This document shows, piece by piece, positions 142-40,050 of a stretch of DNA of 40,050 nt. Position 1 is the first letter of the stretch, and each line of letters opens with the position of its first letter. The DNA lies in the IMG/VR virus record IMGVR_UViG_3300033553_000094, positions 1 to 40,050 of that record; one strand, given 5' to 3'. The translations under genes were made by a program, and so were the position numbers. This stretch comes from a virus. Under the pieces are notes generated by a model, which did no database searches, was not told the DNA's origin, and saw only the letters and a program-made list of their open reading frames with translations.

Positions 142-1781
142 GTACGTCAGATATAACGAATGCAGACAGAGATTATTGTAATGCAAATGCGACTTTGTTA
201 GCTGGTACTATTGGCACTGGTTCAAATACTGCCGATGCGTATAATTATGCATCATCTGTTGGTATCACCTACTACTTTAAAATATTTTCAAAATATGAAA
301 TGGCAGGCGATATAAAATACAGTATTGGAGTCTCCGGTTCGATAACTGCAACAGACGTAACACCCCCTGATGATGTTACAAGTTTTACAGCTACGGCAGG
401 AAATACAGAAGTAGAACTATCGTGGACTGACCCATCTAACGCTGATTGGGCAGGAACTAAAATAATGAGAAAGATTGGCTCATATCCTGCCAATGAAATT
501 GATGGTGTGTTAGTTGTAAACTCAACAGTTAAGGACGAGCATTCGGCTACTCCCTTCACCGACACAGGATTAACGAACAATACATTGTATTACTATCAGG
601 CATTCCCATATGATTCCAATGGAAATTACAATACGAATATTGCGAATAGAGCAAGCGCTACTCCAATTCCTTATTACATTTATGGTGTAAAAATAGACAC
701 CACTAATAGCAACCCTGAAACTGCATTAGTCTATACAAATGATGCTATAGGATTTACGCCTGCTACTGGCAATAATGGCACGTTTGGTTACGGTTCATGG
801 GCAGATAAATTCCCATTTAATCAAATCAAACCATGCCTATATCTAAATGGTGCAGTTAATTATTATCTCGACCCTAACGATTATACTTTAAAAGAAGATG
901 GTGTAACTGCATCAGATATAACAAGCGGTACTGATGGCGATGTGATGGTCGAATTTCCTAAGATATGGTGGAAATTCGAGACTATTGGGAGTGACTTATA
1001 CGTCAGATATGCCGATACACAAATAGATGCAAACTATAAACCTTTAGCACATCTAAGAGGCACTACAGAAAAGGATATGTGTTATATATCGGCATATTTG
1101 GGTTATGACTTATCTAGTAATCTTCGCTCGTTAAGTGGTAAAACCCCTACAGCAACACAAACTATTGGAGCATTTAGAATATTAGCACAAGCTAACGGTG
1201 CTGGCTATGACCAAATGGCATATTTCCAATCATTGATGTTACAGGTTTTATTCATTGTAATGTTTAAAAATAGAGACTCGCAAACAGCTTTAGGCAGAGG
1301 TTTTGTAGACGGCAACGCCGCCGCAACTGCAACTGGTGGAACAAATGCAAAAGGTATGTTCTACGGCGAAACTACTGGGCAACTACAAAATAAGTTCTGC
1401 GGTATTGAAGATTTTTATGGAAACTTGCGTTATTGGATTGATGGATTTTTTAGTAATGCTACTTGGAATATACTGATAGCAAATCAAAGCTTTAATGATA
1501 CTGGAAGCGGGTACACAGACTATGGGCAAGGAGCAACCGCTAATTTAAGCGGTTATATCTCTACTGTTCAAGGCGGTACAGAAACTGGGTTTGTAGTAAA
1601 GGCTACCGCAGGTAGCGCGACCACGTACTACGCGGATAGCGGTGCTCTTTATGCGTCGCGCCTGCCGATTTTCGGTGGGTATTGGGCGAATGCGGATACT
1701 GCGGGTGCGTTCTATCTTACTGCGGGTTTTGATGCCTCGAGTTCGGCTTCGAGTATCGGTGCGCGCCTGCTTGCTTTGTAA
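1..1781 (+). CDS. Tail fibre / receptor-binding protein, DGR target (3' part; gene begins at 39270)
   Basis: This is the C-terminal part of an 806-aa fibre whose ATG is at 39270; the frame is open through the circular junction, so window base 3 starts codon 215. The TTG at 195 opens no separate gene. Seen: two fibronectin-III-like segments (about residues 215-330 and 333-432, the second starting VTPPDDVTSF and containing VELSWTDPS), then a region of about 370 aa ending in a C-type-lectin-like fold with GGYW and a terminal IGARL. Residues 758-806 are the DGR variable repeat, and the TAA at 1779-1781 lies at its 3' edge. Known: DGR targets usually carry the variable repeat at the end of a C-type-lectin domain that binds receptor. 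Inferred: adhesin at the tail tip. The gene lies between the distal tail gene and the reverse transcriptase. Confidence 0.9.
   Translation, partial: AEYATFKFTYSNPSNFLLANENEGTQIGVTWTNPDSNDLIARELYVSTSDITNADRDYCNANATLLAGTIGTGSNTADAYNYASSVGITYYFKIFSKYEMAGDIKYSIGVSGSITATDVTPPDDVTSFTATAGNTEVELSWTDPSNADWAGTKIMRKIGSYPANEIDGVLVVNSTVKDEHSATPFTDTGLTNNTLYYYQAFPYDSNGNYNTNIANRASATPIPYYIYGVKIDTTNSNPETALVYTNDAIGFTPATGNNGTFGYGSWADKFPFNQIKPCLYLNGAVNYYLDPNDYTLKEDGVTASDITSGTDGDVMVEFPKIWWKFETIGSDLYVRYADTQIDANYKPLAHLRGTTEKDMCYISAYLGYDLSSNLRSLSGKTPTATQTIGAFRILAQANGAGYDQMAYFQSLMLQVLFIVMFKNRDSQTALGRGFVDGNAAATATGGTNAKGMFYGETTGQLQNKFCGIEDFYGNLRYWIDGFFSNATWNILIANQSFNDTGSGYTDYGQGATANLSGYISTVQGGTETGFVVKATAGSATTYYADSGALYASRLPIFGGYWANADTAGAFYLTAGFDASSSASSIGARLLAL
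1631..1780 (+). repeat. DGR variable repeat (VR)
   Basis: This 150-bp segment aligns without gaps to 1811-1960 (offset 180). There are 33 mismatches and every one is at a position where the template has A; no C, G or T of the template differs. The template has 49 adenines, so two thirds are changed: 24 to G, 5 to C and 4 to T. It encodes the last 49 residues of the tail fibre. Of 12 template asparagine codons, 11 are altered. The unmutated last bases, CTTTGTA at 1774-1780, may belong to the site where mutagenic homing starts. Confidence 0.97.
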
Positions 1782-1810
1782 ATAAACTACAGATATAGGC
1801 TTATAGTACC

Positions 1811-1960
1811 CACAGATAACGGTAATATTTATACGTCGCACCTACCGAATTTCAGTGGGAATTGGACGAATGCAGATAATACGGGTACGTTCTATCTTAA
1901 TGCGAATAATGATACCTCGAATTCGAATTCGAATATCAGTACACACCTACTTACTTTGTA
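1811..1960 (+). other. DGR template repeat (TR)
   Basis: Non-coding 150-bp template 180 bp downstream of the variable repeat, same orientation, upstream of the reverse transcriptase. Read in the fibre's phase it is rich in AAT/AAC codons (12), the codon type that yields most diversity under adenine mutagenesis. In phase it ends TTG TAT where the target has TTG TAA, so homology stops inside the target's stop codon. Known: the TR transcript is reverse transcribed with errors at adenines and the cDNA replaces the VR. Confidence 0.97.
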
Positions 1961-2089
1961 TATATTAAATTTGGGTACTATAAGCCTTAGCTCTTGCTAA
2001 AACACACAACAAGACTCCACGCTGTGTTAGTAGGTTAAATCTCGAAAGCTCGGCTAGAATACAAAGCAAATTTAGAAAGGCTATTTTTG
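1961..2089 (+). ncRNA. Spacer between TR and reverse transcriptase, probable 3' part of the DGR RNA
   Basis: No credible gene is seen. Two adjacent hairpins are visible: TTAGC/GCTAA around a TCTT loop at 1987-2000, then AACACA (2001-2006) pairing with TGTGTT (2023-2028). Known: in the Bordetella phage DGR, the spacer downstream of TR is part of the structured RNA on which cDNA synthesis is primed. By position and folding this segment is the likely counterpart; that is inference. It ends with AGAAAGG at 2074-2080, the ribosome site for the reverse transcriptase. Confidence 0.5.
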
Positions 2090-3175
2090 ATGAAGCGACA
2101 AGGGTATTTATATGAAAAAATCTACAGCTATGAGAATCTGCAATTAGCGCACCAAAAAGCAAAAAGAGATAAAGCCTTTTACAGAGAAGTTAAAATGGTT
2201 GATGCTAATGAAGATTATTATTTATTACAAATACAAAACATGTTGATATGGAAAATCTATACTGTTGTACCTAATGATTACAAGACGTTCAAAAAAGTGG
2301 ATAAAGGAAAGGAACGAGAAATATTCAAGTTAGACTACTTTCCGCACAGAATAATCCAACACGCTTTAATGAACATTGTTGAAGATATCTTTCTTAAGAG
2401 CTTTATCGACAACACCTTCGCTTCAATTCCTAATAGAGGAATCCATTTAGCGCTAAAACGAATGAGTAATGATATTGAAAGTGATAAAGAAAGCACTAAA
2501 TACTGCTTAAAAATGGACGTAAGGAAATTCTACCCTAGCGTAAACCAAGAAATTTGTAAAAGAATGCTTCGATTAAAGTTTAAGGACGCAGACTTACTAT
2601 GGTTGATGGATACTGTTATTGATAGCATGGAAGGTGATAACGGAATAGCAATCGGCTCATTGTTTTCTCAATGGGTAGGCAACTTCTATCTTAGTTATTT
2701 TGACCATTGGCTGAAGGAAGTAATGAGGGTTAAATACTATTATCGCTACTGTGACGATTTAGTTATATTACATGGTAGCAAAGAATACCTACACAAGCTT
2801 AGGGTTGAAATCGAAGAGTATTTAACCACTAAGTTAAGCCTAAGACTAAAAAGCGACTGGCAAGTATTTCCTATAAAATTAAGAGGTGTAGATTTTGTAG
2901 GGTATAGACACTTTGTTAGCTATGTACTGCTTAGAAAATCGACAGCCAAAAACTTGAAACGAAAAATGAGAAGATTACTAAAACGTTGCGAAAAAGGGCT
3001 GCCGATGACTTACGGTGAATGGTGTAGTGTAAACAGCTATAAAGGATGGATTATTTACTGTAATGGTCATAATCTAGCAAGAAAATATATCAATCCGCTA
3101 CTTCCGTACACTGAAAAATACTATAAAGAGGTGATAAAAATTGAAAAAGGTAAGAGGGACAATGCTGGAAGTTAA
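2090..3175 (+). CDS. DGR reverse transcriptase
   Basis: RNA-directed DNA polymerase of 361 aa that copies the TR RNA into adenine-mutagenised cDNA. Seen: the metal-binding motif KMDVRKFYPSV (about 141-151), the DGR-type motif IGSLFSQ (188-194), and YCDD (220-223) with the two catalytic aspartates, followed by the thumb. Length is typical of DGR enzymes. IGxxxSQ plus the TR/VR pair separates it from group II intron and retron enzymes. I chose ATG 2090 (AGAAAGG, 9-nt spacing) over the TTG just before it. No Avd-like helical-bundle gene lies beside it, so accessory function may fall to the small genes downstream. It overlaps the next gene by 35 bp. Confidence 0.95.
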   Translation: MKRQGYLYEKIYSYENLQLAHQKAKRDKAFYREVKMVDANEDYYLLQIQNMLIWKIYTVVPNDYKTFKKVDKGKEREIFKLDYFPHRIIQHALMNIVEDIFLKSFIDNTFASIPNRGIHLALKRMSNDIESDKESTKYCLKMDVRKFYPSVNQEICKRMLRLKFKDADLLWLMDTVIDSMEGDNGIAIGSLFSQWVGNFYLSYFDHWLKEVMRVKYYYRYCDDLVILHGSKEYLHKLRVEIEEYLTTKLSLRLKSDWQVFPIKLRGVDFVGYRHFVSYVLLRKSTAKNLKRKMRRLLKRCEKGLPMTYGEWCSVNSYKGWIIYCNGHNLARKYINPLLPYTEKYYKEVIKIEKGKRDNAGS

Positions 3176-3380
3176 ACCGCTTGAAGTCGGAGTTGATACT
3201 GTTTATGTGCGTACTGATATTGTTCGCGTTGAAACAGAAGACTTTATAGGTTGGGAGTACGATGAAGAACAGTATAGTAAAGACGCTTATATCAAAAAAA
3301 TAGCAGACGAAAAAGAAGAACTCACATTAGTTGTCGATGATTTAATCACGGTGCTTGTGGATAAGGGGGTTGTGTATTGA
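3141..3380 (+). CDS. Small tail-module protein, 79 aa, unknown
   Basis: The TTG at 3141 has a good ribosome site (GAGGTG, about 7-nt spacing) inside the end of the reverse transcriptase, so the two are probably translationally coupled. The protein is acidic, with a segment TEDFIGWEYDEEQYSKDAYI and a C-terminal helix rich in E, L and V. I recall similar short proteins after the fibre gene in Bacillota prophage tail modules, but I cannot name a function. Its place in the DGR cassette makes a DGR accessory role possible. The stop overlaps the next ATG (TGATG). Confidence 0.6.
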   Translation: MKKVRGTMLEVKPLEVGVDTVYVRTDIVRVETEDFIGWEYDEEQYSKDAYIKKIADEKEELTLVVDDLITVLVDKGVVY

Positions 3381-3529
3381 TGTCTAAGTATGAAAACCTA
3401 GATAAATACCTTGAGAAAAAGGGAATAAAGATAAAAGTCAAAGAGAAAAAAAAGACAAAGGATTTAAAATCTGGTGATATTGAAGCCTTAACAATAAAAA
3501 TGCTAAAAGACTTTGGATATTTATATTAG
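3380..3529 (+). CDS. Small basic protein, 49 aa, unknown
   Basis: ATG at 3380 overlaps the upstream stop. The protein is very lysine-rich in the middle (IKIKVKEKKKTKDLKSG) and ends with a helix-like DIEALTIKMLKDFGYLY. No domain is recognised. Start and stop both overlap neighbours by one base, which supports a tightly coupled tail/DGR operon. A nucleic-acid-binding role could be guessed from charge only. Confidence 0.5.
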   Translation: MSKYENLDKYLEKKGIKIKVKEKKKTKDLKSGDIEALTIKMLKDFGYLY

Positions 3530-3825
3530 TGAAAAACTTTGCAGATTTCGCGACGGACGATGGTGTTCTTACAGGCGACAAACTAAAGTTGGATGACGTA
3601 TTGAGTAAGGAAATTATTGTTAAAGGCTATAAAATATCGGATAGTAAATACGGTAAAAATAACGAAGATAAAAAAGTTTTGACGCTCCAATTTGAACTAG
3701 AGGGTATTAATTATATAGTTTTCACTGGGTCTAAAGTTTTGATGGGTCAAGTCGAAAAGTATGAAGTCGAGATTCCCTTTATGACTAAAATTGAGAAAGT
3801 TAATACGTTTTATAGCTTCACGTAA
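3529..3825 (+). CDS. 98-aa protein in the DGR cassette, possibly OB-fold
   Basis: GTG start at 3529 overlaps the previous TAG. The protein has alternating beta-like strands (KEIIVKGYKISDSK, KVLTLQFELEGINYIVFTGS, KYEVEIPFMTKIEKV) and starts with a FADFATDDGVLTG segment. The pattern is compatible with a small OB-fold or single-stranded-nucleic-acid-binding protein, but I see no diagnostic motif. It is the last gene before a change of function to tail hub, with a 61-bp gap holding an inverted repeat. A role in DGR homing or in tail assembly is inference from position. Confidence 0.6.
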   Translation: MKNFADFATDDGVLTGDKLKLDDVLSKEIIVKGYKISDSKYGKNNEDKKVLTLQFELEGINYIVFTGSKVLMGQVEKYEVEIPFMTKIEKVNTFYSFT

Positions 3826-3826
3826 T

Positions 3827-3870
3827 GTCGCATTAGATTCAAAGTGTGTCGTAAAATTTTAGAATGCGAC
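3827..3870. repeat. Inverted repeat GTCGCATT / AATGCGAC
   Basis: An exact 8-bp inverted repeat (3827-3834 and 3863-3870) with a 28-nt loop sits in the gap between the DGR-side genes and the tail-hub gene. There is no T-tract, so it is not a classical terminator. It could be an RNA-processing hairpin or a scar at the edge of the DGR cassette. Confidence 0.4.
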
Positions 3871-7651: not shown

Positions 7652-7891
7652 TCACTTTATAGTGCCTACTGATATTTCAAATATCTTTACTAATAAAGTA
7701 ACAGCAACCCCAACAACAGCAAGAACAGCAGCTATTTCCATTCCTGTCTTAAACATGGCAGCGTAAAATCCTTTACCGATAGTAACTAGAAACTTTTCTC
7801 CCATGAAAGCCACTAATCCACCTAACAAAAGTGCTAACATTACCATTCCGGCTGTACCGGTGCCGAAGAATAGTTTTGCTATCTCAGCCAT
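7652..7891 (-). CDS. Small integral membrane protein, 79 aa
   Basis: ATG 7891 fits the ribosome site AAAGGAGG better than the TTG nine bases upstream. Two long hydrophobic helices (about 11-28 with GMVMLALLLGGLVAF, and 48-70 with IAAVLAVVGVAVTLLV) joined by a short basic loop. Its shape recalls small pore-like or pilin-like subunits (TrbC/VirB2 type) of secretion systems, but no motif proves this. Sits between the HTH protein and the M23 peptidase. Confidence 0.7.
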   Translation of the reverse strand: MAEIAKLFFGTGTAGMVMLALLLGGLVAFMGEKFLVTIGKGFYAAMFKTGMEIAAVLAVVGVAVTLLVKIFEISVGTIK

Positions 7892-8529
7892 TTTAAACAA
7901 TCCTCCTTTACTTCAGAATAAAGACATACTATAAAATTTAAGTTGTTTCTGTTTTCTTTTTGGATTATCTTTTCTATTTTGTTTATATCTTCTGATATGA
8001 CAATTATTGAGGGGAATCCAGTAGCTAAAGAACTCCACCACGCATTAATATAGCGTTTTTCTTCAAAGAATATATTGATTCTATTTACTTTATCCTCTAA
8101 TGATTTCTTGGTATTTTCGAACTCTATAAAATGGAATCTATAATCGTTAGTAAATACGTTTTTAATTGAGGCTAATCCGTCTGCTCTAAGTATTCCATAA
8201 TCTACTTCCCATTCAAAAGAGTGTAGTTTCTCCCATTCCTTTATTGTATTTAGTATCCAAATGTAACCCCAGTTAACGCCTATCTTATGCTCAATCTGTC
8301 CGGGCTTAGGAGTGTTATTAATCCAATAACAATATGATTCTGTATTGCTAATTCTTGACCTCTTGAACACTTTTCCAGTTAATTTAGTCATTCTGTTTTG
8401 TGCTGATCGTAAACTAGGGAAGAATCTCAGGGCCAGTATTTGTTCCGTGGTTAAGACTTTGCATTTTTCCACTAGGTAAATCAAGGCTTTGTCTCGATGG
8501 TAGGCTTTTTGATGATTGTTTAACTTCAA
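7879..8529 (-). CDS. Replication-relaxation (Replic_Relax) family protein
   Basis: 216 aa. An N-terminal winged-helix-like region (HRDKALIYLVEKCKVLTTEQ followed by LRSAQNRMTKLTGKVFKRSR) matches the start of Replic_Relax proteins found on Gram-positive plasmids and integrative elements. The rest has a nuclease-like pattern (GILRADGLASI, FHFIEFENTKKS) seen in this family. The TTG start at 8529 follows AAGGTGGTGAGG and lies inside the FtsK-like gene, giving a 116-bp out-of-frame overlap; a later start would cut the conserved first helix. It may bind the element's DNA and hand it to the motor; that is inference. Confidence 0.75.
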   Translation of the reverse strand: MKLNNHQKAYHRDKALIYLVEKCKVLTTEQILALRFFPSLRSAQNRMTKLTGKVFKRSRISNTESYCYWINNTPKPGQIEHKIGVNWGYIWILNTIKEWEKLHSFEWEVDYGILRADGLASIKNVFTNDYRFHFIEFENTKKSLEDKVNRINIFFEEKRYINAWWSSLATGFPSIIVISEDINKIEKIIQKENRNNLNFIVCLYSEVKEDCLKWLR

Positions 8530-9619
8530 TTACCTCACCACCTTTGCGATTCTTCAAAAGCTTTTCGGCTTGGTCAGGTTCAAGTAATAAACATTGTACT
8601 TCCAAGCAATCTAAGCCGCACTTATATATGGCCCTTCCTTTAATAGCCGGCAAGTGAGCAGCTCTATCATTGTCTAAAACCATTCTGCTATTTATTTCGT
8701 CTGCTACAATAAAACAAACTCTTCCATGACACATGGCTTTAAATTCCCCAAAAGTATTCCACAGCTTAGAAGATGGCCTTTGAGTGGCTGCAATAATGTG
8801 AATCCCTACGAATCTTCCCATTCTGCCTAGTCTCCAAAGTAGTTCCTGTAACTTTTCATCATTTTGTAGTTCGGCTAATTCATCTATTATCAAAGTAACT
8901 AAAGGCATTTCGTAACCTTTTTCTAAATACTTTTGAACCTTCACGCATTTAGCGGACCTAAGTTGCTTTTTTCTTTTGTCCATTAAATCGTTTAACCCTT
9001 TTAAAATGTTGTAAACTTGGTCAGCTTCAGACACTACTAAAGCGTGATCTTCTAGGTATGCAAACTCTGTCTCTTTGGGGTCTATAATGACTACATAACT
9101 TTCAGGACGGTATAGCAAAATCGATACTGCAATAACATGAAGTAAATTAGATTTTCCGTAGTTAGTTTCTCCTGCTATAAACAAATGAGGAAAATCGGCT
9201 AAGTCTTTAACTATCAAGCCTTTTGAAGAAAACCCTATAGGGATAGGCAATAACATTTTAGGATATTTAGAAGCGTCAAACATAGCAAAAGGGTAGTTAG
9301 TTTTTAACTCTTCCGTTAAAGCCTCTATCAATACTTCTGTGCCTCGTTTAGTAATAAGCACAGTACCACCGATAGCGTCAGCGAATAACTGTTGTTTCTT
9401 TTGAAATTCATTAAATCCAATTCCAGGGGGCAAATGTATAAGGTAATTCCATTCTTTATCTTTTCCGTTTTCTTTAAGAATAAGAGGTTTAAAATCTTCA
9501 TTCTTCCAACAAGCATCTATTACATCACTAATTGCAGCGTAAGGAGTTTTGTTTCCTTTCCGATGTATCCAGAGGTATCTTATCCTTTGCCGGAACTCTG
9601 CAGAGTTATCTTTCTTCAC
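8414..9619 (-). CDS. FtsK/SpoIIIE-like DNA translocase
   Basis: 401 aa, GTG start overlapping the upstream stop (GTGA). The motor domain is clear: Walker A G150-ETNYG-K156-S157, Walker B LIIDE (243-247), and ATQRP at 278-282, as in FtsK and TraB/TcpA-type coupling proteins. No N-terminal membrane helices and no C-terminal gamma domain are visible, so it is a soluble or partner-recruited motor. Plasmid relatives move double-stranded DNA during conjugation (Streptomyces TraB) or partition. The 116-bp overlap with the next gene falls in its low-complexity C terminus. Confidence 0.9.
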   Translation of the reverse strand: MKKDNSAEFRQRIRYLWIHRKGNKTPYAAISDVIDACWKNEDFKPLILKENGKDKEWNYLIHLPPGIGFNEFQKKQQLFADAIGGTVLITKRGTEVLIEALTEELKTNYPFAMFDASKYPKMLLPIPIGFSSKGLIVKDLADFPHLFIAGETNYGKSNLLHVIAVSILLYRPESYVVIIDPKETEFAYLEDHALVVSEADQVYNILKGLNDLMDKRKKQLRSAKCVKVQKYLEKGYEMPLVTLIIDELAELQNDEKLQELLWRLGRMGRFVGIHIIAATQRPSSKLWNTFGEFKAMCHGRVCFIVADEINSRMVLDNDRAAHLPAIKGRAIYKCGLDCLEVQCLLLEPDQAEKLLKNRKGGEVIEVKQSSKSLPSRQSLDLPSGKMQSLNHGTNTGPEILP

Positions 9620-9891
9620 GCTACATCACCCTTTATCTTTTCCATAGTCTCTTTCCACGCTCTAATAAACACTACATCAAAAGCTCGCTTCTCTAACTTA
9701 CCAATACGCTTGATGATGCCATGTTTCTTAATGGGCTCATAGTAATGCTTTCTATAAATTTCTAGATCTTCCAAATAGAGATTAGCGTCTGTAAACTTTT
9801 CGTAAAACAATTTAGCATTTTCGCTAGCATAGAAAGCTACTGCAGCAGTAAACTTTTCCCTACAAAGGGAATACACCTCTTCATAAGTCAT
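9616..9891 (-). CDS. Unknown protein of the partition/transfer operon, 91 aa
   Basis: Helical, charged 91-aa protein with many aromatic residues (FYASENAKLFYEKF, EIYRKHYYEP). No domain recognised. Start ATG 9891 has GGTGGTGAG upstream; the stop overlaps the FtsK-like GTG. Co-transcription and coupling with the motor gene suggest an adaptor role, but this is only context. Confidence 0.65.
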   Translation of the reverse strand: MTYEEVYSLCREKFTAAVAFYASENAKLFYEKFTDANLYLEDLEIYRKHYYEPIKKHGIIKRIGKLEKRAFDVVFIRAWKETMEKIKGDVA

Positions 9892-9902
9892 CTTCTCACC
9901 AC

Positions 9903-10151
9903 CTAGAAAAAGTTTTTTAAATCATCCACAAGCTCATCATCTTTAACTCCTGACTTTTCCGCTAAAGAATACATTTTTAATCTTTGCTCAATTAGTAATA
10001 ATATTGCTTGCTCTGTACGTTCTGGAAGAGTAGGGGATAACTCTTCTTTAATCTTTACTTTTACCCATTCCGAGAAATTTACCGAATGAGCAAATTGTAT
10101 TAACTCGCTTTCTTTTATATCGTTGAAATACACTGCTTTTATTTTCCGCAT
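9903..10151 (-). CDS. ParR-like DNA-binding adaptor
   Basis: 82-aa protein directly after, and overlapping by 13 bp, the ParM-like gene. It has a short strand AVYFNDI followed by helices (ELIQFAHSVNFSEWVKVKIKEEL), a layout compatible with a ribbon-helix-helix protein. Its acidic C-terminal tail (DDELVDDLKNFF) resembles the ParR segment that docks to the actin filament. Known systems (parMRC, alfAB) pair such an adaptor with the actin in one operon. Function assigned mainly from context. Confidence 0.65.
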   Translation of the reverse strand: MRKIKAVYFNDIKESELIQFAHSVNFSEWVKVKIKEELSPTLPERTEQAILLLIEQRLKMYSLAEKSGVKDDELVDDLKNFF

Positions 10152-10945
10152 GATGCAACACCCATCTTATAAAATCCTTTAGCGTTGGCGAAAATAGGAT
10201 CTTCAACTAATCTACAATCAAAATGAGGCTTAAGGTAATCGAATAAAATCATACCTCCACCACCTGATATTAAAGTAAGGTAAGGTTTACTCCATACTTT
10301 AGACAAATCGGCCACAATCTTTCTAGCGAACTGTTCAAAGTACATATCACCTGCATTTCCTAAATCGATTGTTCCGTACTGCAAAGTACCTGATTCTCTG
10401 TCAATATACTTTCTGTTTTTTATAGTACAGTAATTTATAGTGCGACTTCCTACATCGATTATTCTTTCAGTATTAAAGGAATCTTTAATCAATTCACCTT
10501 TATTATTTAATATCTCATTCCAATAAACTCCTGTAGATTCAGCCACAACTCCAACTTTAACTATATATTCCTTTTTGGGGGCATTATTAAGCCCTACAAA
10601 GTGCTGACCTTCTAATAATGACTTATACCTTAGCTTAGTATTTTCGTCATGCTGTGAGACTGGTAAACCGATAGTAACATTAGATTCTCCTGATATTGCA
10701 ATAGCGGTTAAAAATAGCAACAAGGTCTCTTCGTGGATTTTGCTTTCTGTTGTCATTTCTCTTTGGCAATAACTTTCCTCAGCTAAGTCACCGACAAAGT
10801 ATTTTTTATCTTGGTATTCCAATTCATAATTACCGCCAGTGCCTAGTTTCCTTTCTCTCCATTCACCCACAGCAGAGGGAAATGTTATTCTTTTATCTAT
10901 TGTGTATAACTTAACTCCTTTTCTGCCTATGTCTATTCCGATCAT
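10139..10945 (-). CDS. ParM/AlfA-like actin ATPase for DNA segregation
   Basis: 268 aa from ATG 10945; AAAGGAGG with 7-nt spacing favours it over the GTG six bases upstream. Actin-fold signatures: phosphate-1 GIDIGRKGVK at the N terminus, phosphate-2 DVGSRTINY near residue 165, and the adenosine loop LISGGGG near 235. It is shorter than R1 ParM (about 320 aa), like AlfA-type proteins. It would form filaments that push sister copies apart through the ParR-like adaptor and a centromere. First gene of a seven-gene operon whose upstream region has repeated TTAGCTATATGA sites. Confidence 0.85.
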   Translation of the reverse strand: MIGIDIGRKGVKLYTIDKRITFPSAVGEWRERKLGTGGNYELEYQDKKYFVGDLAEESYCQREMTTESKIHEETLLLFLTAIAISGESNVTIGLPVSQHDENTKLRYKSLLEGQHFVGLNNAPKKEYIVKVGVVAESTGVYWNEILNNKGELIKDSFNTERIIDVGSRTINYCTIKNRKYIDRESGTLQYGTIDLGNAGDMYFEQFARKIVADLSKVWSKPYLTLISGGGGMILFDYLKPHFDCRLVEDPIFANAKGFYKMGVASCGK

Positions 10946-11018
10946 GTTCACACCTCCTTTATATTTTTGTACTTACCTTTTTATTAAGGGCAAAGGATTG
11001 TATAGATAAATATATGCA

Positions 11019-39269: not shown

Positions 39270-40050
39270 ATGACCGAAATGTTTAGATTCTTTGATTCGG
39301 CAGTAGGCGACACAAGAGAATATAACGCTGACCAATTTGGAGAATACTTTAAAACACTAATCAACACAGGGCTAGTTCAAGGGGCTTTAAACGACCTACA
39401 AGTCACAGCCGATGGATTAACCATGAAATCTACAATCGACACAGGAAACGTCTTTATAGATGGCTACTGGTACGAAAATGACCTAGCTTTAGAGTTAGAG
39501 CATGATGTTGAGACAGTTGGTAATGACAGAATAGACAGAGTTGTTATAAGACTAGACAAAACCGTTGCTAATCGTTTCGTCAAAGCTTTTATTGTCAAAG
39601 GTACAGCAGGAGTAACACCAACCGCACCAGCATTAACTAGAACAAGTGACGTTTACGAATTATCTTTAGCACAAGTGTATATCACAGGCGGTCAATCATT
39701 TATTGACTTAGTTGATGTAACAGAAGAGCGTGGAAATGTAACGCTGTGTCCTTATGCCAATTCTAACATTTTGCCTTCGTATGATGCACAAGACTTAACA
39801 GACCTAGAAACAGCATTTAACGAACATAGCGCAAGGCATGAGGTAGGCGGTGCGGATGTAATCAGCTTAGAGGATTTAGCGGGAGAATCGACAGCTTTAA
39901 AGTCGCATAAGGCTGAATATGCGACATTCAAATTCACTTACTCTAATCCTTCTAATTTCTTACTAGCAAACGAAAATGAAGGCACTCAAATAGGCGTTAC
40001 ATGGACAAACCCTGACAGTAACGACTTAATAGCAAGAGAACTATATGTAA
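39270..40050 (+). CDS. Tail fibre / receptor-binding protein, DGR target (5' part; continues at base 1)
   Basis: ATG 39270 with AAGGGAGTGAT upstream. The first ~215 residues (TEMFRFFDSAVGDTREYNADQF, MKSTIDTGNVFIDGYWYEND, DRIDRVVIRLDKTVANRFVKAF, YELSLAQVYI, ending in the collar-like EHSARHEVGGADVIS) are the attachment domain usual for Bacillota phage fibres. The frame stays open to the window end and resumes in phase at base 3. The complete protein is 806 aa: attachment domain, two FN3-like domains, C-type-lectin-like tip with the variable repeat. Confidence 0.9.
   Translation, partial: MTEMFRFFDSAVGDTREYNADQFGEYFKTLINTGLVQGALNDLQVTADGLTMKSTIDTGNVFIDGYWYENDLALELEHDVETVGNDRIDRVVIRLDKTVANRFVKAFIVKGTAGVTPTAPALTRTSDVYELSLAQVYITGGQSFIDLVDVTEERGNVTLCPYANSNILPSYDAQDLTDLETAFNEHSARHEVGGADVISLEDLAGESTALKSHKAEYATFKFTYSNPSNFLLANENEGTQIGVTWTNPDSNDLIARELYV
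39910..40050. repeat. Terminal overlap, identical to 1-141
   Basis: Same 141 bases as the window start. See the entry at 1-141; counting it once gives the circular length of 39,909 bp. Confidence 0.95.

Follow-up and report, generated by a model that had tools for sequence, protein, structure and literature searches.

The 40,050-nucleotide stretch analysed here (the window), which is the whole virus record IMGVR_UViG_3300033553_000094, very probably carries an avd-less diversity-generating retroelement (DGR) that diversifies the receptor-binding tip of the tail fibre of a temperate phage and works in the manner proposed below. DGRs number in the thousands and this one is in itself ordinary; the RNA features of its relatives matter more. 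From these features, we suggest that a chimeric primer-guide is present in two distant DGR lineages, with a 5' half that pairs with the template repeat (TR) and a 3' half that pairs with the variable repeat (VR) and has the priming nucleotide as its last base, which would explain the one-way flow from TR to VR; and that in the avd-less lineage a long-range helix loops the template and replaces the avd-derived end signal. Part of this spacer pairing may already have been described in the RNA and structure literature on BPP-1, and we therefore hold this suggestion with moderate confidence. A spacer element that matches VR at the IMH mismatches, next to the priming adenine, would provide a concrete and testable reason for the direction of transfer, while the closing helix would give the avd-less lineage a defined template RNA. 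We infer the activity, the priming site and the RNA fold of this DGR from its sequence.

An avd-less retroelement at the end of a tail gene

VR and TR align without gaps at an offset of 180 and differ at 33 positions, all of which are among the 49 adenines of TR (24 A>G, 5 A>C and 4 A>T), while the other 101 TR positions are identical in VR; on recomputation, these figures of an earlier sequence-only reading proved exact to the base. The chance of all differences falling on adenines is ~1e-20 (hypergeometric; calculated for the repeat after a 4-base shift). Identity between the repeats collapses immediately outside them, and the window contains no second VR, the next best match at non-A positions being 43-47/101. 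VR encodes, in frame, the C-terminus of a tail protein, and TR is intergenic and non-coding. The count of A-site differences stands, with the reservation that one of them, G1773 in VR opposite A1953 in TR, lies inside the element complementary to the spacer element s3 and is probably a fixed IMH/IMH* difference, not a mutagenic product. The further claim that the gene had been rewritten heavily or repeatedly does not follow from 33 changed adenines among 49: each homing event copies afresh from TR, so that this proportion reflects the last event or events together with selection rather than accumulation.

RT searches yielded a family set of 80 viral and 58 cellular loci, giving 139 RT-bearing loci with the window. 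In 120 of the 139, TR lies directly upstream of RT and VR differs almost only at adenines, and across the family loci only 29 non-A mismatches between VR and TR were found in 9,544 positions. In the window, all 17 adenines that precede C or G upstream of 1951 have become G. Near relatives have changes at 85% of the adenines before C and at 94% of those before G, with 98% of the changes being to G in both contexts, and adenines before A or T change to all three other bases. At fourfold-degenerate third positions in the whole family, we counted 19 G, 8 C and 0 T before C and G in 103/106 before G; because the preference for G extends to these sites, selection on the protein cannot be its only cause, and because the loci are related and not independent, all of these adenine-context figures describe patterns and not rates. 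The BPP-1 lineage is unlike the near relatives of the window in that adenines before C become G in only 47% of changes; in E. coli, the BPP-1 DGR shows extra G misincorporation, and hence A>C, at adenines before C (PMC12875486). We also note that one related contig has a second VR/TR-like pair with 11 A-only differences ~4 kb from its first DGR (L039:8655-9028).

The RT matches RVT_1 (E 4e-12) and phrog_1423 (E 2e-112), and its best solved relative is the PDB series 8ub7-8ube (E 3e-34), for which the database gives only the name 'Reverse transcriptase' and which we take to be the BPP-1 RT with its RNA. Together with the two sequence motifs in Table 1, these matches bear out the earlier assignment of a DGR-type RT next to TR; other solved RTs match more weakly (group II intron RT, 4e-10; an RT named as retron-type, 9e-10). 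A small ORF with unassigned function (phrog_18126; window 3141-3380, +) overlaps the end of the RT gene. Between 1781 and 2087, the + strand has no ORF of 60 aa, the two ORFs after RT have no Pfam match, and a search with PF05635 (avd) gave no match, a weak result in that its positive control likewise gave none. The DGR had been called complete, which holds for its own lineage; an avd gene is absent, as is normal for lineage 3. Lineage 3 DGRs are avd-less with the order target-VR-TR-RT, as described for crAssphage LMMB in the consulted sections of PMC7290462 (after Wu et al. 2018). By its gene order and lack of avd, the characters on which the lineage-3 assignment is made (relatedness of the RT to RTs of crAss-like DGRs being pairwise only), the element is a DGR of this known kind. 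Two other assignments were considered and rejected: a BPP-1-type DGR, because the window has neither an avd gene nor the Phage_DGR spacer RNA, and a retron, i.e. an RT with msr/msd, the retron RT model scoring far below its cut-off.

The target gene starts at 39270, runs across the 141-b terminal repeat and ends at 1781. Comparison of the target with PDB sequences gave nothing useful, and a search by fold succeeded instead. Specifically, the last 371 aa were modelled using AlphaFold2 (mean pLDDT 96.4; alignment of 35 family members), and the best Foldseek matches of the model were TaqVP (5vf4; E 5e-12) and Mtd (1yu0-1yu4). All eight PDB matches at E <= 0.001 were DGR variable proteins (TaqVP and Mtd chains), with modest TM-scores of 0.2-0.5. 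The model points to a DGR variable-protein (C-type lectin) fold with VR at the C-terminus. Among relatives, the nearest RTs (L002, L003 and L004; 58-59% identical) adjoin poorly related targets (28%), and less close RTs (L014 and L040; 53-55%) are paired with targets that are 56-59% identical; this mismatch indicates that RT and target are exchanged separately.

The phage had also been read as circular and temperate. An exact 141-b terminal direct repeat backs the former, and gene content supports the latter, with genes for a large serine-type integrase (phrog_95, E 1e-106), a repressor-like protein and an anti-repressor. A tape-measure gene and a Dit-like gene lie upstream of the target gene, and a Gp37-like tail gene and an endolysin gene lie downstream of the target gene and DGR. 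Megablast found no DNA relatives of the phage. Adjoining the integrase gene is a plasmid-like block (window 7879-10951, -) that encodes a replication-relaxation-like protein, an FtsK-like ATPase and a ParM-like partition protein; the phage may also persist as an episome.

Table 1 Features of the DGR in the window
Feature	Position	Strand	Basis or remark
Target tail protein, C-terminal 592 aa	1..1781	+	phrog_5302 tail, E 3e-64
VR, variable repeat	1631..1780	+	ungapped alignment with TR
IMH-like 3' end of VR, TTGCTTTGTA	1771..1780	+	exact complement of spacer 2060-2069
Closing helix arm a1, AGGCTTATAGTACCCA, directly 5' of TR	1797..1812	+	inverted repeat, family pairing
TR, template repeat, 49 A	1811..1960	+	ungapped alignment with VR
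Closing helix arm a2, TGGGTACTATAAGCCT	1972..1987	+	inverted repeat, family pairing
Probable Rfam RT-17 RNA (RF03020)	1983..2073	+	40.1 bits, cut-off 40.4, E 1e-6; covariation
RT-17 parts: hairpin and second stem	1988-1999; ~2021-2053	+	structured 3' spacer of template RNA
s3, ATACAAAGCAA, probable primer/guide	2059..2069	+	complementarity to 3' ends of the repeats
DGR reverse transcriptase; alternative start TTG 2087	2090..3175	+	motifs IGSLFSQ, YCDD; RVT_1, phrog_1423

The spacer RNA and a predicted helix around the template repeat

Judged by covariance models, the spacer between TR and RT is probably an RT-17 RNA, with the window scoring just under the Rfam gathering cut-off (Table 1). Of 17 relatives, 13 exceed this cut-off with a match in the same position, and our own covariance model (R1), made from 28 relatives including the window itself, gives the window 72.4 bits and in 81 of 100 sources finds a single copy per locus, on the same strand and in the interval from TR to RT. 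Ten of the 12 base pairs examined for covariation have double changes, with 56 double-changed cells compared to 16.6 after shuffling. A search of 391 genomes using RT-17 matched six further genomes, of which two have a clear TR/VR pair (L150 and L152), one has a poor pair with 7 A and 10 other mismatches (L153), and three have none (L151, L154 and L155, the last two being truncated at 1.7 kb). The Rfam model of RT-17 lacks the upstream arm a1 described below and makes no reference to TR or VR. The spacer of the window and its near relatives is thus probably RT-17, and that of the Lactobacillus phage LBR48 is RT-18 (RF03021); because the BPP-1 spacer is Phage_DGR in Rfam, this database already holds a DGR spacer family so named. 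Five relatives (L018, L021, L022, L033 and L036) have a GC-rich hairpin between TR and the spacer RNA, e.g. ATCCCCCGG...CCGGGGGAT in L018, and a related phage contig contains the Rfam RNA RAGATH-18 (L002:2868-2929).

Arms a1 and a2 are complementary over 16 bp without mismatch and enclose TR; a1 ends at the first bases of TR, a2 runs into the RT-17 fold, and the helix is formed in both the MFE and the centroid fold of the window. In relatives, the sequences of the arms vary and yet remain complementary: own arms pair far better than shuffled partners, with a z of -10.4 in 38 loci and of -7.9 in 70 further loci, and the corresponding value for gapless arms was 14.6 (83 loci). Double-changed cells numbered 103 in comparison to 36.5 +/- 4.9 with shuffled partners and 28-38 with slid partners; the register of a1 was chosen by complementarity, and the slid controls and permutations, which have the same freedom, are the fairer comparison. 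A first test with fixed flanks gave a weak result, the arm being further from TR in loci with longer spacers, and later tests were anchored on the RNA core. In loci with VR at a distance of 276-3838 b, the arm stays beside TR. Some near relatives (L012, L083, L034 and L039) have, by our definition, no good closing helix close to the start of TR. In Bacteroidetes-type relatives (e.g. L079, L107 and L068), arm a1 is GGTTGT and the helix has one bulged G at a fixed position. In BPP-1, a motif at the avd end sets the 5' end of the template (PMC12875486); we found no closing helix there, and the z of -2.1 in 45 BPP-1 relatives is at most a weak trend that we do not count as presence.

The spacer element s3 and the priming site of BPP-1

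s3 is perfectly complementary to VR 1771-1780, and to TR 1951-1961 apart from one mismatch, a C that faces A1953. Comparison of its complement, TTGCTTTGTAT, with VR, TTGCTTTGTAA, and TR, TTACTTTGTAT, indicates that the upstream part, which corresponds to the 3' end of the RNA element, agrees with VR and that the last base agrees with TR. The priming adenine is predicted to be A2069 or a neighbour, and pairing that is weaker with TR than with VR would be odd for a pure primer.

To score s3-type elements in 100 distinct loci, we used a scheme that favours neither repeat and a threshold score of >= 7. At this threshold, an element was found in 73 of 100 loci with their own spacer and in a mean of 25 of 100 with the spacer of a stranger (z 12.9, a value to be read with the relatedness of the loci in mind, because test statistics on related loci overstate independence and inflate counts). 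At positions that discriminate between VR and TR, the 3' half of s3 agrees with VR over TR by 111:8, whereas the ratio for the 5' half is 66:105; in our first test, in which the halves were not separated, it was only 135:91. The six 3'-most bases equal VR in 67 of the 73 loci and TR in 2, and the second VRs of multi-target loci lean likewise (81:12 for the 3' half). Relatives distant from the window often have an s3 that ends in C or G and not in A, and the priming nucleotide may, therefore, differ in these.

In BPP-1, the spacer stretch that best matches the end of VR is Sp 48-56, AGGTGGTCA, which fits VR at 9/9 positions and ends at A56, which we take to be the nucleotide that primes cDNA synthesis, with TR G117 presumably the first base copied; in the pairing of Sp 48-56, TR G117 is the next base. 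At the priming site of 42 BPP-1 relatives, the 3' half favours VR by 60:7, the ratio for the 5' half is 51:66, and 41 of the relatives have A as the terminal base. The permutation test in this lineage was weak (z 3.1) because the motif hardly varies there. This control supports that s3 has the place, the polarity and the chimeric fit of a known primer. It has been described that in BPP-1 an internal adenine of the spacer serves to prime within IMH* (PMC12875486), and that a 21-bp IMH with 5 mismatches to TR sets the direction of transfer, for which the consulted sections of PMC3240598 give no reason.

Proposed working, alternatives and related systems

Our working hypothesis is that a transcript over TR and the spacer would fold such that the 16-bp helix loops the 150-nt template beside the RT-17 fold, which may bind RT without Avd. 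s3 would pair with the 3' end of TR and prime cDNA from about A2069, and the first copied base would be about C1950 if the geometry is like that at BPP-1 A56. RT would misread adenines, almost always yielding G before C or G and any base before A or T; the repeats display this pattern, and misreading is its presumed cause. By its position, the closing helix would mark the 5' end of the template. The 5' half of s3 would hold the element on TR and the 3' half would fit the primed cDNA to VR: because the 3' half matches VR but not TR exactly, a strand composed of s3 and cDNA would fit VR better than TR, and with this complementarity copying would run from TR to VR and leave TR intact. The new VR would then alter exposed C-terminal residues of the C-type lectin fold. 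The order of events could also be another, with the primer sequence itself being written into VR, which predicts an identical pattern. Retrohoming of the cDNA is incompletely understood (PMC12875486).

We give little weight to the explanation that s3 matches VR merely through common descent, or because the stretch in front of the RT gene has another function, e.g. as a ribosome-binding site. Subgroups do show conservation of both IMH and s3, and s3 is 5-30 b upstream of the RT start, as this explanation would have it; however, differing motifs change together (TTGATG, TTGCTT, TTTGCT, GCCTTT, TTGGCT and CTGCTT), the s3 of a stranger reaches the score in far fewer loci than the own one (mean 25/100 vs 73), a distant DGR lineage has the same VR-3'/TR-5' chimera at its priming site, and the window has a ribosome-binding-site-like AGAAAGG downstream of s3. 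We also doubt that the inverted repeat flanking TR functions as DNA and not as RNA, although BPP-1 requires a hairpin/cruciform after VR (consulted sections of PMC3240598) and the repeat in the window starts just 17 b past the end of VR. The arms are ~160 nt apart and enclose TR, the repeat stays beside TR in relatives in which VR is hundreds to thousands of bases off, and it abuts the RT-17 fold in register, all of which argues for an RNA helix of the template and against a counterpart of the BPP-1 hairpin.

A decayed or inactive DGR, in which the sequence elements are intact and homing has ceased, would look similar in that activity is not deducible from one consensus sequence. We consider it unlikely given that the RT ORF is intact with its motifs, the target ORF is intact, VR equals TR at 101/101 non-A positions and the conserved RNA elements are all present. 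We see next to no chance that the RT is that of a retron, group II intron or defence system beside an unrelated repeat: the inverted arms around the template next to RT do resemble retron a1/a2 and there are weak NCBIfam matches to group II and retron RTs, but all such matches are far below cut-off, among solved structures the 8ub7 series leads by 24 orders of magnitude, and VR/TR pairs with A-only differences occur throughout the RT family.

The avd-less DGR proposed here shares with that of BPP-1 the signature of mutagenic homing, the RT, a spacer between TR and RT, an Mtd-like target fold and VR-3'/TR-5' complementarity of the spacer; BPP-1 differs from it in having avd, Phage_DGR (RF03022) as spacer RNA, no clear closing helix and another context effect on A>N changes (PMC12875486). 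The crAssphage LMMB DGR also has the order target-VR-TR-RT, no avd and a CLec-type target, according to the consulted sections of PMC7290462, in which a closing helix, s3 or a spacer RNA is not mentioned for this DGR. Its RT is related to that of the window, and its VR and TR have 21 A differences and 1 other as computed here. Unlike crAssphage LMMB, the window is a different phage of 40 kb with siphovirus-like tail genes. The cultured Psychrobacillus phage Perkons (MT325768), in which the annotation gives only a hypothetical protein and a reverse transcriptase, has the same layout as the window, with a VR/TR pair of 137 nt that has 32 A-only differences, an RT that is 56% identical and closing-helix arms of the same kind (AGGCATTCA / TGAATGCCT).
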